Source: an uncultured Coriobacteriaceae bacterium (GTDB lineage Bacteria > Actinomycetota > Coriobacteriia > Coriobacteriales > Atopobiaceae). Taken from it: a DNA stretch of 64,000 nt. Positions within the stretch are counted from its first letter, which is position 1; each line of letters starts with the position of its first letter. Below the pieces are notes generated by a model that worked only from the letters and a program-made list of their open reading frames with translations, was not told where the DNA came from and ran no database searches. Below are positions 46,660-55,273 of the stretch, piece after piece. The position numbers were made by a program, and so were the translations under genes. The DNA is taken from positions 1-64,000 of the forward strand of contig CACZFB010000003.1 of the NCBI GenBank assembly GCA_902780305.1, written 5' to 3'.

Positions 46660-47268
46660 ATGAGCATTCGGCTAGGCGTGCTCCTCTCGGGATCGGGCAC
46701 CAACCTGCAGGCCATTATCGACCGCATTGAGAAGGGGACGCTCGACGCCACCGTGGAGCTGGTGGTCTCGTCTCGGCCCGACGCGTATGGTTTGCAGCGG
46801 GCGCAGCGGCATGGGCTGCAAACGCTTACGCTCTCTAAGGAGCTGTATGCGGACCCGTTTGTTGCGGACGAGGTGATCGCGACGGAGCTCAAGCTGCATG
46901 ACGTGGACTACGTGGTGATGGCGGGATACATGCGCATGGTGCATGCGCCCATCCTGCAGGCGTTTCCCAACCGCGTGGTAAACCTGCATCCCGCCCTGCT
47001 GCCCAGCTTTAAGGGTGCCCATGCCATTCAGGACGCGTACGATTACGGCGTAAAGGTTACCGGTGTTACCGTGCACTTTGCCGACGACCAGTACGACTGC
47101 GGCCCCATCATCGCGCAGGAGGCGCTGGTGGTGGAGGAGGGCTGGACGGTCGACGAGCTCGAGGAGCACATCCACGCCATCGAGCACCGCCTGTATCCCA
47201 ACACCATCCAGCTCTTGGCCGAGGGTCGCGTCCACGTACAAGACAATGGCACCGTCGCCGTGGACTGA
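46660..47268 (+). CDS. purN: Phosphoribosylglycinamide formyltransferase
   Basis: A 202-residue folate-dependent enzyme of the third step of purine synthesis. Key features are LLSGSGTNLQAIIDRI, MAGYMRMVHAPILQAFPNRVVNLHPALLPSFKG with the catalytic Asn-x-His, and GVTVHFADDQYDCGPIIAQEA with the catalytic Asp. The ribosome binding site is AAGGAGGG. Its TGA stop is the start of a family-A palindrome, which closes the purine group. Confidence 0.95.
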   Translation: MSIRLGVLLSGSGTNLQAIIDRIEKGTLDATVELVVSSRPDAYGLQRAQRHGLQTLTLSKELYADPFVADEVIATELKLHDVDYVVMAGYMRMVHAPILQAFPNRVVNLHPALLPSFKGAHAIQDAYDYGVKVTGVTVHFADDQYDCGPIIAQEALVVEEGWTVDELEEHIHAIEHRLYPNTIQLLAEGRVHVQDNGTVAVD

Positions 47269-47294
47269 GAAAAGGGGCCAAACCCCTTTTCTCA
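47266..47294. terminator. Family-A palindrome fused to the purN stop codon
   Basis: TGAGAAAAGGGG, CCAAA, CCCCTTTTCTCA. The first three bases are the purN stop codon. Confidence 0.7.
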
Positions 47295-47308
47295 CTTTTG
47301 CGCCAAAC

Positions 47309-47337
47309 TGAGAAAAGGGGTTTGGCCCCTTTTCTCA
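47309..47337. terminator. Family-A palindrome fused to the stop of the TPM gene
   Basis: TGAGAAAAGGGG, TTTGG, CCCCTTTTCTCA. Read on the minus strand, its last three bases (TCA at 47335-47337) are the TGA stop of the TPM-domain gene. Together with the copy at 47266, two elements in opposite orientation sit 14 bases apart between convergent genes, each attached to its own gene. Confidence 0.7.
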
Positions 47338-48099
47338 GAAGCTGTGGCTGCCGCCTCCGCCACCGCCTCCGCCACCACCGCCGCCACCGCCACCGCCGCC
47401 GCTGCGGGAGGAGCGATGATAGGTGTGGCGGCTGGTGACCACGGGGTCGAGCTGCACGATGGTGGGCAGCTCCGCCATGCCGCGCATGCTCTGGGAGCTC
47501 GCACGTTGTTGCATCACCTTGGCGCGTGAGCGGTACAGCACAAAGAAGTTGATGAGCACGCCGCCAATGATGGCGACCAAGAAGTTGGTGATGTGCCTCA
47601 TGGGGTTCGCGATGGTGCCGCCCTTGCAGCGGGCGAGCATCTGCGAGAGGGCGTCATCGGCGCAGCCGTAGTAGTCCTTCCTGGTGGCCTTCTTGTACAC
47701 GTTGTCCGTAATGGCACGTCCGTCTCGCTCGGACACGTACTTGAGCCCGGCGTCGTTGGCATACACGCACACCTGACGGTTGTGCATGTCGATGATAAAT
47801 GCTACCGCGGGGTCGGTCCCGTAGTGCTGCCTCATGTAGCTTTTGGCAAAGACCTTTACGTCGCTCGTCTCTTCGTCGGTCGTTACGAACGCAGCGTCCA
47901 GGTACTCCGAGAACTCGGCGTAGTCTTTTTTCAGCCGCCTGCGTTCGGCGGCGGTAAGCAGCTCGGCCTGGTCGTCCACGGTAAACGATCCCTTGGCATG
48001 GGCAACGCGGGGCGCAACGCCCGCAAGCAGGACAAGGCACAGGCCCAGCAAAAGGGCGGTGCCAAAGGTGGCAAACCAACCGAATCGCGCGTGTCTCAT
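47335..48099 (-). CDS. TPM-domain (YgcG-like) membrane protein with polyglycine tail
   Basis: A 254-residue protein. A signal peptide or anchor covers about 8-35. The TPM domain (about 38-165) begins VDDQAELLTAAERRRLKKDY and continues with AAFVTTDEETSDVKVFA and VAFIIDMHNRQVCVYANDAG; TPM domains have been linked to acid phosphatase activity and membrane protein repair in plants. A membrane helix follows at about 188-206. The tail is a run of about 17 glycines and ends SHSF, as in many YgcG homologues. Start and stop of the two genes overlap by four bases (ATGA) with the zinc-ribbon membrane gene upstream, so they are co-translated and probably form a complex. Confidence 0.82.
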   Translation of the reverse strand: MRHARFGWFATFGTALLLGLCLVLLAGVAPRVAHAKGSFTVDDQAELLTAAERRRLKKDYAEFSEYLDAAFVTTDEETSDVKVFAKSYMRQHYGTDPAVAFIIDMHNRQVCVYANDAGLKYVSERDGRAITDNVYKKATRKDYYGCADDALSQMLARCKGGTIANPMRHITNFLVAIIGGVLINFFVLYRSRAKVMQQRASSQSMRGMAELPTIVQLDPVVTSRHTYHRSSRSGGGGGGGGGGGGGGGGGSHSF

Positions 48100-49856: not shown

Positions 49857-49980
49857 CCACATTAAGTGCGAAGATCGTTTTACTGCAAAAGTTGATGTTT
49901 TTGAGAAAACCGCAGGTCAGAGGCTTGTCGCCTTCGAGCGACCCGGTGGGCAGGGCTAGAAATCTTCGCACTTAATGTGG
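49857..49980. mobile_element. 124-bp terminal-inverted-repeat element, copy 1
   Basis: The ends CCACATTAAGTGCGAAGAT (49857-49875) and their exact complement (49962-49980) form a 19-base terminal inverted repeat, 20 with the next C/G pair. The interior contains CGTTTTACTGCAAAAGTTGA and GCAGGGCTAGAA. A second copy in the same orientation, with about six differences, lies at 51101-51224 on the other side of a DUF559-type gene. A 12-base tandem repeat (GGGCGCTGGCGT, about three copies, 49818-49852) abuts the left end. An open frame of about 38 codons across the element on the minus strand has no ribosome binding site. Confidence 0.8.
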
Positions 49981-50021
49981 GGGATGTTGGAAGTCGGCAG
50001 TGGGCGTCGATTCTGGCGCAT

Positions 50022-50993
50022 CTACGAGAACCCCAGCAGCTCGGTGGGGTTCGTGGCGTAGCGTCGCAAGCGCGTTTGATACGCCACGCGTGCGGTCCAC
50101 TGCTCGTCGGAAATCGGTTCGAGCGCCTGCCCGATGCTGCTCGCAACAATCGATGCCACGCGCTCGATTTGTCGTGGGGCGTTCATGTGCTTGCTGGTAA
50201 CAGTAATCACGCGATATCCCAGCTCGGCAAGAACGTCTCGGCGTAGGGCATCCTGCGCGATGCGTGCGGATGCCAAATGATGCGCATCGCTGTCGTACTC
50301 AATGGCCACGCGCTCGTCGTTCCACAGCAAATCAGGCGTGATGGTGTCGAAGTCCCAGTACTTGCGCGCCGTGCCCTCAACGGGAATGGGATGGTTGAGC
50401 TCGGGCGCTCTCAGGCCAAAGCCGCCACGATCGGGCGGCTCGTGCAGCATGAGCGCAAGGGCTGCTTCCATAGGAGACGCCGCTCCCGCAAGCACGCGCG
50501 GAGCCACCAACAGTGCCTTGCGCTTCCCGCGAACACGCCCGAGCTCCATAGCCGTCTGGCGTAACACCTCGGGCGTGCAGGTCTGCTCACGCTCAAACAA
50601 CGTGCCGGCGGGGCTTATGCCATACCGTCCACACAGCTCCATACCCAGCATCAGCAAGCGTTCCTCGTCTAGCAGGTTGCCCATCTGCACGAACGCCAGC
50701 TCGGGTCCGCAGCAAAAGATGCCTCGGTCCATGCGGACGGCGTTAAAGGTAAACGAGCTAGGAGCAAAGAGGTGACACTTGGTTATTGAGGAGGGGCGAC
50801 GGCTATCGCGCATGGATACGACCAGGTGTAGCGGGCGCGTGAGGTCCATGATGGCCTGCGCGTGCCGCTGGAGCTTGGTGTGGCTGGCCTCTATGGAGAG
50901 GGGAGGCAGCGCGTAGCGCTCGGATAAAAGCGCTGTGTTCGTGTTGTGCCGCAGCCATTCCACGGCCGTGCCGTAGCCCAGTAGATATGCCAT
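50022..50993 (-). CDS. DUF559/Vsr-like nuclease-fold protein
   Basis: A 323-residue protein. The C-terminal 120 residues look like a DUF559 or Vsr-type PD-(D/E)XK endonuclease domain: PDLLWNDERVAIEYDSDAHH with Asp and Glu/Asp in the right places, then RRDVLAELGYRVITVTSKHM. The N-terminal 190 residues are unfamiliar; they include LLSERYALPPLSIEASHTKL and a possible transcription-factor-like or AbiEi-like helical part. The start at 50993 follows AAGGGAGAAGATC; a longer frame runs back into the 124-bp element and lacks a ribosome binding site. The gene is bracketed by two direct copies of the element, 41 and 107 bases away. It may move with, cut at, or merely sit beside them. Confidence 0.6.
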   Translation of the reverse strand: MAYLLGYGTAVEWLRHNTNTALLSERYALPPLSIEASHTKLQRHAQAIMDLTRPLHLVVSMRDSRRPSSITKCHLFAPSSFTFNAVRMDRGIFCCGPELAFVQMGNLLDEERLLMLGMELCGRYGISPAGTLFEREQTCTPEVLRQTAMELGRVRGKRKALLVAPRVLAGAASPMEAALALMLHEPPDRGGFGLRAPELNHPIPVEGTARKYWDFDTITPDLLWNDERVAIEYDSDAHHLASARIAQDALRRDVLAELGYRVITVTSKHMNAPRQIERVASIVASSIGQALEPISDEQWTARVAYQTRLRRYATNPTELLGFS

Positions 50994-51100
50994 GATCTTC
51001 TCCCTTGGGCTCGTTGCGTCCGAGTCGCCCGCATCGGATGGCCATTGTAACCCGTTTGGGAGCGGCGATGCCGCGATTGGCGCGGTGTGCCAGTGGATTG

Positions 51101-51224
51101 CCACATTAAGTGCGAAGATCGTTTTACTGCAAAAGTTGATGTTTGTGAGAAAACCGCAGGTCAGGGGCTTGTTGCCACCGAGCGACCCGGCGGGCAGGGC
51201 TAGAAATCTTCGCACTTAATGTGG
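51101..51224. mobile_element. 124-bp terminal-inverted-repeat element, copy 2
   Basis: Same length, same orientation and same 19-base ends as the copy at 49857-49980, with about six base differences between them. It lies upstream of the DUF559-type gene, so any promoter for that gene must lie inside the element or in the 107 bases after it. It is followed by the family-C palindrome at 51242. Confidence 0.8.
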
Positions 51225-51241
51225 GGGTGTCCGCTCAGGCG

Positions 51242-51315
51242 CGCCTATCGATGGGGGTGACCCCCTTTGATATGCCACGTGCGGCAATCAAAGGGGGTCA
51301 CCCCATCGATGGGCG
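51242..51315. repeat. Family-C long palindrome
   Basis: CGCCTATCGATGGGGGTGAC and CCCCATCGATGGGCG at the edges pair with few mismatches; CCCCTTTGATATGCC and GGCAATCAAAGGGGG form the inner part. Total about 74 bases, lying between the second 124-bp element and the end of the ChW gene. Confidence 0.65.
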
Positions 51316-51327
51316 CTCGGCCCCGTA

Positions 51328-54300
51328 CTACTTTGATACGACCTGCAGGTCCAGGGCTTCCAGGCGCAGCGACCGTCCGGAAGTGCCGGCATCGGCGCCG
51401 TCGCTTACCCACGCGCCCCAGCCCACGCGCTGCGAATGCGCGCGGTAGCGCACCGAGAAGTGCTCGGCCAGTTCGCCGGTAAGCCGCACGCGCACGGCCT
51501 CGATCCGCCTGCTCTGCCCCACGGTGCCGGCCCGCGCGCCGTCTGCCGCCGCAGGCATCCAGCCGCGACCCTGTACGTGGACCTCGTAGGCAATGCCGCC
51601 CGCATAGGGCTGGTTGGGCAGGCTCAGCCGCAGCGCTTCCAGGCGCCGGCCCTCACCGGTGGTGCCAATGCGTAGCGTCGAGCGGTTGCCGGTCCAGCCG
51701 CGCCCCTGCACGTGCACGTTGGCGGTGGCGGCGCCCACATAGGCGGGCTTCTGGTCGTCGTAGCCCTCGGGCGTCTGTCCCTCGGGCAGCACCACGACCT
51801 CGTAGGCCTCCAGCCGCTTGGAGAGACCCGCCGTGCCGGCAGGCTCACCATCGCATGCCCAGCCCAGCCAGCCGTATCCCTGCGCATGCACGCGATACCA
51901 CACGCTCTGGCCGCTCGTGCCCGATAGGCGCATCTGGATGGCCTCGATTCGCCGACTCTGCCCGGTGGTGCCCGACAGCTGACCGTCTCGAGCCCATGAG
52001 CTCTCCCAGCCAGCGCGCTGCACGTGCGAGCGGTACTCGATGGAGCCCGTGTCCACCGTGGCCGCAATCGCCTCCAGCCGGCGACTCTGCCCGGTGGTAC
52101 CGGCAGTAACCCCGCCGCTCACGGCTGGCAGGTCGCCCTTGCCCTGCACGTGTGCGGCGTACGAAACCGTCGCGTTCCACTGGGCGTACAGGTCCACGGT
52201 GTGGTCTTGCTCGACAGCCTTGGCGGTGGCCTCGTCGTTGAGGTCGACATGATCCAAGACCGTCAGGTAGTTGTCTCGGCTGGGCAGCCCCAGCTCCTGC
52301 GGCGTCACCTTGGCACCCGTCGCAAAGTTCTTGCCCGAGCCGTCGGGCTTGGTGTTCCAGGCCACGATGCTGCGTCCGGCCAGCTTGGCGTCGCCGTCGT
52401 CCTCGTCGAAGCCATAGACGCCCAGGCGGTCGCCGTCAACCACCTGCTGCTCGGCCATCACGTACGTGTCGCCGGCGTTGCGGTTCGCGTGATAGTTGAT
52501 GCCGTACACGGCCTCGTCGTACCACAGGCCGTACAGGTCCACGACCTCGCCGTCCGGCAGCTCCTCGTACGACAGATCGCCCTCGGCGGGATACGCCGTG
52601 CTGTTGCCGTTTGCGTCGGCCTTCGTGGCCCATCCCCCAAAGGTAAAGCCCGGACGCTGCGGCAGCTGGTCACCGTAGGCGATCACGCCAAGGGCTTTCG
52701 CGTCGTAGCCATCGGGCAGGGTCGTGTCCGTCAGGAATTGAGAGCCGCCTTCGAAGATTTCGAGTTGCAGCACCTTTTGGTCCTTGACATACGGCGCGGA
52801 CTCGTCCACGTTCGCCCAAAGATGCACGTGCTTGACGGGGAGCATCGTGGTGTTTGCCACGAGGACAATCTCCCGGGGGTCGGTGTTCTCAACCACGTGG
52901 TCGGCCGTCACGTTGTCGCGTATCGTCTGGCCGTCGCCGTTTAGCATCGTCCATCCGGTAATCACGGTGCCTTCGTTTATCAGCTTGTTCTCCAGCGCCA
53001 TGGTGCCCAGGATGTCGCCGTCGCGACGTGTGCCCATGGCTATGGATCCACCGTCTATGCGCACGGTAAGGTTGTGCTCGGTGCCTTCGAGATGCGTCTT
53101 GCCTGGAATCGCCTCCCCAACCTTAAACTGAGAGAACCACGCCAGCGACTGCTGCGGCCAGTGCGAGGCCGCCACGGCACCGCCCGCCTTGGCCATGGTG
53201 AGCGCATGGTAGAAGTTAAAAAGCCCCATGTCCTGCTCACCTTTGTAGAAGCCGAGGAAGATCTTGGCGACTGCGTTGGAGGCCTCGTTGAGGGCGTCGG
53301 CATCGTAGGTCATGCCTAGGTCGCCCAAGGTGGGGCCAAGCGTGCGTTGCGTGAAGTCGGCCACGATGTCCTGCTTGTCGAGCACCAGCGTGGACGCCAA
53401 AGACGCCAGCAGCCTACCTAGCTGCGTGTTGGAGGTGGAGGCTCCCAGCTCGTCCACGGGGTTGTCGTCGACGGCCAGGGCAATGCCGTCGGCAAGCATG
53501 GCGGTAAGCGCTTCTTGGGCCTTGGCGCTCATAATGGTGTTCAGCTTGGCGCGCCTGTCCACGGTCGGTCCCATGGTCCACGCCATCAGATTCTCCAGGG
53601 GTTTCTCGAACTCCTGCGCGTACTTTTGCCGGTTAGCGGCTGCGGTGCCGTCGGCATTGTCGAAGCCTGCCGAGACGAGCAGGAACCGGAAGAACTCCTC
53701 GTAGTACCTGCCCTGGTTATAGGCCAGCTCCTTGCCCTGGCTCACGTACTTGTTGCCCTCGCCCTCGGTGTCGTACGAGATGGTAAACAGCGGCGGGTTC
53801 TCGGTCTTCATAAAGCGCTTGTTCTTGGGCAGCAGCTTGTTGAGCTGGTGGGCCAGCTTCTTGAGGCCGTTGGTTGCCACGCTCGTCTTCGAGAAGTACC
53901 GCTGACGGAACAGACTTGCCGTAAAGGCCGTGCCCGGGTCGATCTCGCGCAGGTTGGCAACCATGCGGTTAACGGCCTCGGCGCGCAGGCCAATCTGCTG
54001 GTCACGCTGGTGCAGCGCGTCGGCTGTGTTGTACGTGCCGGTTATGTCGTGGTCGTGAGAGTAGCCGTAGCGGCCAAAGCCCCACCAGTCCATGATGATC
54101 TGTGGGAACCAGTCGTCTGGGTTGATGAGGTTGTGAAAGCCCACCATGAGGCCCTCGTTGGCCGCCGCGTCTTGGGCGTCGGTGGCCGTGGGGCAGTTGA
54201 CGGCGTAGCAGTAGACGTCGTCGTTCGAGAAGTGCACGTTGGTGTCGATGTAGTCGGTGGGGAAGCTCACGCTGGCGGTGTAGCGCTTCTCTGTCGGGGA

Positions 54301-55273
54301 ATAGTTGGCGCCTTTCACGGTGTGGCCCTCGTTGTAGGAGTCGTTGTAGGGTTTGTATGGCTGGTTGCTAGGGTTCCGCTCATAGATCCACTTGTTGATC
54401 CAGCCCAACGCCATGTTGACGGCGGTGCCGCCGCGGCAGTAGCCGCTGCCCCAGATCTTTACGTTATCAACGCCGTTCGTGTGCTTCTGAATGTACGGCA
54501 TGATAAACCCGAGCACGCCGTCACGTGCCTCTTGGAAGCCCGTGGCGTCTCCGCTGGCACCCACGCGCATGTTTAGGCCCCACTCCTGCTCGTATCCGCC
54601 GCCGCGGCCAGCCACCACAAACAGGCGGTAGGTCTGATTGCCGCCGTTCTCGTTAACCGTGATGTCCTTGTATCCGATGGCCACGCCAATGTTGGACTTG
54701 GTGACGGGCTTGTAGTTGTAGCCGTCGTTTACCGACACGTCCTTGCAGCCAATCTGCTGCAGGAAGGACTTGATGTTCTTGGCCTTGGCCGCGTAGTTTG
54801 CGTCCGTAGTCCGTGCCCTCCTCGTTGGAGTTGTCAGCAGCGGAGGCCAGGCACACCGACGCGTAGGCCAGATCGTCGTTGTAGGTGCCCGCCTTGTTCG
54901 CAAAGAAGTTGTCGCTGTAGGTGCACTGGGCGTACACGTCCTTGTACATGTTGGCCTCGGAGGGCAGGCCCACGTTTACCACGATTCCGTCGTTCGTTGC
55001 CTGCGTGTCGGTATCCTGCACCTGTACGGCCTGCTCTTGGTCGGTCGGCTCCTGCGCGACGGTCGCACCCTCGTCGCCCTGCGCCTCCACCACAACCTCG
55101 TCGTTGGGCGTGGTCTCCTCAACGGGTTCGACCTCTTGTGTGGGCTGCGGCGTCACTTCCTGGCTGGCGGAGGCCTGCGTTGGGCCTGCGGCGAGCAATA
55201 CGCCCAGCAGGAGCAGGACCGTCGCAAGGGGTAGGGCAAACCAGTGGCGCCGACTGACCGTGGTGCGTTTCAT
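51328..55273 (-). pseudogene. Secreted lipase-fold / InlB-B / six-ChW protein, frameshifted by a 7-bp repeat
   Basis: Two reading frames join into one protein of about 1310 residues. The first (from ATG 55273) has a signal peptide (FALPLATVLLLLGVLLAAGP), an acidic linker and VCLASAADNSNEEGTD. The second continues ANYAAKAKNIKSFLQQIG to the end. The break is at two tandem copies of a 7-base unit, GTCCGTA and GTCCGTG (54802-54815); removing one copy restores a single frame. The body holds an alpha/beta-hydrolase-like core (KIWGSGYCRGGTAVNM), a long helical part, InlB-B/Listeria-Bacteroides-type repeats (FTFGGWATKADANG, VVDLYGLW) and six ChW repeats in two triplets. No LPXTG. It may be a true mutation, a phase-variable switch or a sequencing error. 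Confidence 0.75.

Follow-up and report, generated by a model that had tools for sequence, protein, structure and literature searches.

A Vsr/EDxHD-type nuclease gene bracketed by inverted-repeat elements points to a RAYT/REP-like pairing of enzyme and repeat in Coriobacteriia

To our knowledge, repetitive palindromic elements of the kind considered here have so far been associated with a single class of enzyme, the Y1 RAYTs. RAYT genes are known to have REPs or long terminal inverted repeats (TIRs) at their flanks, a REPtron whose RAYT has long flanking TIRs being termed a TIRtron, and the proposed function of these enzymes is REP mobilisation (PMC3733652, PMC8266576). We analysed a locus within a 64,000-nucleotide stretch of DNA (the window) which resembles such systems in several ways: one enzyme gene has short palindromic or TIR elements at its flanks, non-autonomous copies are dispersed, a genome contains several families with a separate enzyme for each, and doublets occur (PMC3733652; PMC8266576). 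It differs from them in its enzyme, which is of Vsr/EDxHD type and not a Y1 HUH tyrosine transposase (PF01797) as RAYTs are, and in its elements, which have a common central core and paralogue-specific TIRs and no GTAG at the foot of the palindrome.

Four other described systems invite comparison with the locus. The EDxHD homing endonuclease I-Bth0305I, described as a dimer that occupies nearly 60 bp of target DNA (PMC3943268), has a similar nuclease fold and the same E-D-x-H-D residues, but the gene described here is free-standing beside or between complete elements, the elements are dispersed and no intron or intein was seen. The Vsr mismatch endonuclease has a related fold (1vsr, Foldseek), whereas the present nuclease carries an extra N-terminal domain of ~170 residues and belongs to a set of repeat-associated genes. 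As short dispersed units with perfect terminal inverted repeats the elements are like MITEs and insertion sequences, but neither a target site duplication nor a transposase bearing these ends was seen. Integron gene cassettes (attC) have conserved end boxes, whereas the conserved core of these elements is central. No description of this nuclease-repeat pairing was found in the literature searched, a body of work from which subscription journals were mostly absent.

The window derives from a draft genome (3.19 Mb, 133 contigs). The nuclease gene (50022..50993, minus strand, 323 aa), whose chosen ATG start is supported by alignment, lies between element copy 1 (49857..49980, plus strand) and element copy 2 (51101..51224, plus strand, same orientation), both 124 bp in length and organised as TIR-spacer-central core-spacer-TIR. 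A preliminary description of this DNA had reported paired 124-bp repeats with 19-base terminal inverted repeats lying 41 and 107 bp from the gene, and these features proved exact: the copies are in direct orientation and 95% identical, both gaps were confirmed, and the inverted repeats are perfect in all four arms (copy 1, 49857..49875 on the plus strand and 49962..49980 on the minus strand; copy 2, 51101..51119 on the plus strand and 51206..51224 on the minus strand), the 19-nt end sequence CCACATTAAGTGCGAAGAT having 0.01 chance occurrences expected in the window. That description missed the central core, which is present near the dyad of each element as GCAGGTCAG, a variant of GCWGGTAGA (49912..49920 in copy 1 and 51156..51164 in copy 2, both plus strand). 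Its observation that a transposase is lacking is correct for the cassette; elsewhere the genome contains two Y1 (RAYT-type) genes, both flanked by other repeats.

Pfam returned only MTES_1575 (1.8e-6) and DUF559 (0.0099) for the window protein, both sub-threshold. An AlphaFold model using 73 aligned sequences was confident (pLDDT 96.1, pTM 0.93) and its top Foldseek match in the PDB was the catalytic domain of I-Bth0305I (3r3p; prob 0.97 but E=0.074), further matches including Vsr (1vsr) and TnsA, while a profile search of PDB sequences again placed I-Bth0305I first (E=0.011). These structure matches give moderate support to a Vsr-like fold, in which an N-terminal domain (residues ~1-170) would be followed by a Vsr/DUF559/EDxHD-like nuclease domain (residues ~171-290). 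Residues E119, S173, P174, E176, G190, G191, N200, D221, E232, Y233 and H239 are invariant in 73 homologues and D248 is nearly so (at least 90%); the E-D-x-H-D pattern (E176, D221, H239 and D248) is therefore present within the predicted nuclease domain, which also contains E232, and the active site is conserved, evidence against a role in DNA binding that is purely structural. The nuclease core proposed from the sequence at the outset is thus present in the predicted fold. Searches of PADLOC and of phage records gave no match for the protein. Its nearest named homologues are from Atopobiaceae MAGs, several of ruminant-gut origin.

The nuclease family was found in 132 of 140 family genomes, often with ~10 copies each. 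The analysis drew on 123 loci, of which 109 were non-redundant and 80 came from named genomes, nearly all Coriobacteriia, with Gordonibacter and Adlercreutzia isolates represented; these loci share descent and are not independent events, and many of the genomes are draft MAGs. A sensitive test looked no farther than 300 bp from either gene end for inverted repeats with a long loop, requiring an arm score of 13 or more, a loop of 40 or more and a span of 80-240; it detected an element at 73 of 108 non-redundant nuclease genes compared with 6 of 176 neighbouring controls, the control genes having been taken from around the 80 loci in named genomes. The repeat thus flanks the enzyme gene as in RAYT-REP systems, and the prospect raised in the preliminary description that homologues might mostly lack elements was not realised. 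About one third of the homologues had no element detectable by this test, whose fixed thresholds miss those that are degenerate or farther off. At a 61% identical homologue in genome G001 the elements lie farther out than the detection reach, and the flanks of the window locus are not common to that genome. Alignment of left with right flanks (score at least 50) detected repeats at 32 of 106 non-redundant nuclease loci and at 1 of 217 neighbouring genes, the latter a redundant set. Within the window's own genome ~9 of 14 nuclease paralogues have elements. At many nuclease genes an element is present on one side and not on the other, and where copies bracket the gene their orientation is direct at some loci and inverted at others.

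The ends of the elements were found to vary with the enzyme. At the 39 non-redundant loci where the inverted-repeat elements of the two sides match, TIR similarity correlated with protein identity (r=0.69; Mantel test, 0 of 2000 permutations), and for pairs of proteins 45-60% identical the TIR similarity was 0.63 as against 0.15 for the interiors, a value equal to background. AAGTGCG(A/T)A ends are common to the window's clade while the TIRs of distant relatives are unrelated. Partial correlations of specificity with the two protein domains (0.26 and 0.36) singled out neither. Three syntenic nuclease loci are shared by the single-contig genomes of two sister species, G074 and G075, with flanks 85-89% identical (at the third locus on one side only); the nucleases are ~50-70% identical and the ends of the adjoining elements are completely different in each pair, the G075 element of pair 365/366 having been recognised by eye. 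In pairs 374/375 and 365/366 the protein windows 161-240 rank with those that diverge most. That the end sequences change with the enzyme points to an undescribed enzyme-plus-repeat system, and from these comparisons it is well supported that each TIR would be recognised by its own nuclease. The earlier proposal of nuclease action at the repeats, in the manner of RAYTs and REPs, likewise gains good support from adjacency, covariation and joint divergence in the sister species.

Copies with the same ends also occur away from the nuclease genes. Seven further elements in the window's genome, overlooked in the preliminary description, carry the window ends (six of 124 bp and one of 108 bp), with interiors unrelated to those of the bracketing pair and a core reading GCAGGTAGAYGG as against GCAGGTCAGRGG in the pair; because core and interior differ, the bracketing pair is not the direct source of these solo copies. 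The window end sequence was present in 2 of the 140 family genomes, namely the window's own and that of one sister species, whose single copy is a relic orthologous to one of the seven (94.7%, 1.4 kb). Dispersed enzyme-specific solo copies, a feature of RAYT-REP systems, were found for four TIR families of the window's genome: F1, that of the window gene; F2, of the C13 paralogue; F3, of the C28 paralogue (one side); and F4, of the C5 paralogue. Solo elements of G075 also have the same ends as its nuclease-linked elements. G001 contains ~18 highly conserved units with ends AGTGTACATTCTGCC, many of them in doublets 106 bp apart (L325-L343), to which no nuclease could be assigned. The window TIR pair was absent from the viral contigs. 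At L171, L173 and L174 solo elements adjoin genes that we called by inspection as AAA-ATPase/PDDEXK-type, another abundant paralogue family here; these were considered as bracketed genes and rejected, their relatives being without core-bearing elements.

Many elements have in common the motif GC(A/T)GGTAGA near their midpoint. GC(A/T)GGT fell within the central 36 nt of 30 of 74 elements as against 1.6 (maximum 4) in shuffles, and a search of the window's genome with the core alone gave 29 matches compared with 4 for controls, and most of the matches fell within inverted-repeat elements, which represented four or more TIR families. Across the AAGTGCG clade the core for the most part keeps a fixed offset from the dyad (left minus right, -7 or -8) despite unrelated spacer sequences. 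The window copies read GGTCAG in the core, and GTAG sits inside the core of many elements; the CWGG within it is, speculatively, reminiscent of the Vsr site. A reading of the elements as hairpins or RNA structures was rejected because the core falls in an apical loop in 3 of 51 cases, the interiors have no common fold and changes in the TIR arms are not compensatory; Rfam gave no meaningful match for the element. Beyond the window's genus the core was mostly not an element-specific marker, 4 of 31 sampled matches being centred in inverted repeats while others follow tRNA genes or stand in different surroundings. At L311, L318 and L323 it lies directly 3′ of a tRNA gene inside a terminator-like hairpin. 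The core AAARSCGCAGGTAGAYGGC occurs in 17 viral contigs, where it may be an integrase site, several copies lying right beside tyrosine-integrase-like genes (L395, L398, L400, L402, L406 and L408), and L401 and L409 have two direct core copies ~55 bp apart. A CRISPR spacer near position 1500 of L316 (repeat GTCGCGCCCCGTGCGGGGCGCGTGGATTGAAAC) contains AAAGCGCAGGTAGATGG, and no protospacer for it was found in the viral contigs.

On contig C30 of G028 (L387:819-2448) a RAYT gene lies between two direct 149-bp elements that are 95% identical and have hairpin ends and a central core as in the nuclease-linked elements. One kind of element thus stands beside two unrelated enzymes.

On balance we lean towards a REPtron-like two-part system in which a Vsr/EDxHD-type nuclease recognises and spreads its own element. 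In many nuclease clades the gene has a TIR-core-TIR element particular to that clade next to it, at one end or at both, and for several clades solo copies of the element occur at other genomic positions. In such a system nuclease subunits would bind the two TIRs as half-sites, the conserved catalytic domain would cut at or near the central core, and break repair or strand exchange would place copies of the 0.1-0.2 kb element at further intergenic positions; solo elements would then be non-autonomous passengers and the gene would ride between or beside elements. That the nuclease cuts at the core and that the element is dispersed we infer from the conservation of the active site, the geometry of the elements, the scatter of their genome-specific copies and the resemblance to RAYTs. 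The system is probably mobile. Several findings argue against it. The bracketing pair is not the direct source of the solo copies, the AGTGTACATTCTGCC family has no assigned nuclease, about a third of the homologues are without a detected element and specificity could not be tied to a single protein domain. In addition no clean empty site, target duplication or insertion event was found in the genomes compared, nor was a target duplication seen by eye at the nine copies in the window's own genome, which also counts against it. We know of no strand-transfer chemistry for a hydrolytic nuclease. The preliminary description had further proposed that the gene and its flanks may move together, for which no support was found: the corresponding locus in the sister genome G006, which lacks the cassette, was considered as a clean empty site and rejected because another module, called by inspection as PIN-type, occupies the cassette's place. 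More tentatively, and with somewhat less confidence than in the two-part system itself, we propose that a Vsr/EDxHD-type family became a mobiliser of REPIN-like elements independently of RAYTs, as a nuclease-driven route for the dispersal of palindromic DNA, enzyme and TIR having co-diversified throughout Coriobacteriia around a core that RAYTs can also serve.

The main rival is homing into solo elements, whereby the nuclease would cut the core of a solo element and repair would copy in an element-gene-element cassette; the bracketing elements would then be the duplicated target and the solo elements empty or emptied targets. The nearest solved fold, that of the I-Bth0305I catalytic domain, fits this reading, as do the target of nearly 60 bp on which the I-Bth0305I dimer sits (PMC3943268) and the position of the core near the dyad between two half-sites. 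Bracketing copies in both direct and inverted orientation are however unexpected from simple homing, and with the completely different interiors of bracketing and solo elements and the many genes with a one-sided element they leave homing unlikely in our judgement. Still lower in probability we place a regulatory role, in which the protein would bind the TIRs as operators or the elements would act as insulating terminators, the nuclease domain being otherwise used and mobility incidental. The intergenic position of the elements near gene ends would suit such a role, as would TIRs that look like paired binding sites and vary without compensatory change, but dispersed copies lie distant from the gene, elements occur downstream of it too, the catalytic residues are invariant and another genome has a RAYT next to an element of this kind.

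The core might alternatively be an attachment or arm site of a tyrosine recombinase, the nuclease genes being cassettes moved through it. Viral copies of the core stand beside genes ending like tyrosine integrases (the nearest at 7 to 105 bp), and of six genes of this type four match a Pfam integrase domain; in some hosts the core directly follows a tRNA gene on its 3′ side. We nevertheless consider this improbable, as it leaves the covariation of TIR and nuclease unexplained, the viral copies mostly have no centred inverted repeats and the window TIR pair is absent from viral contigs. A function in defence or addiction, the nuclease cutting invading DNA and the elements marking or protecting the host, would accord with a solitary and diverse nuclease family of many copies per genome and with the core inside one CRISPR spacer. 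Set against the lack of a PADLOC match for the window protein, of a protein match in phage records and of the TIR pair in viral contigs, and with no partner methylase noticed, it appears highly improbable.

If the REPtron-like two-part system is correct, an unrelated nuclease has entered the same genomic relationship as RAYTs and systems of this kind have arisen on more than one occasion. It would also offer a function for solitary DUF559-type nucleases, which occur in many copies per genome without explanation, and the covarying enzymes and end sequences would form a ready set for learning a sequence-recognition code.

The window contains other repeats. A second palindromic repeat (GATGGGGGTGACCCCCTTTGAT...) at 51241-51316 lies 16 bp from element copy 2, and REP-like hairpins resembling it recur in the window's genome. 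The palindromic repeat at 47263-47339 is present in high copy at many places in the genome, and the RAYT of contig C65 (L388) is flanked by a hairpin of this type, TGAGAAAAGGGGTTTGGCCCCTTTTCTCA. The large gene at 51328-54903 probably encodes a secreted protein with repeated GW-type motifs (VHVQGRGW) and has many relatives genome-wide.
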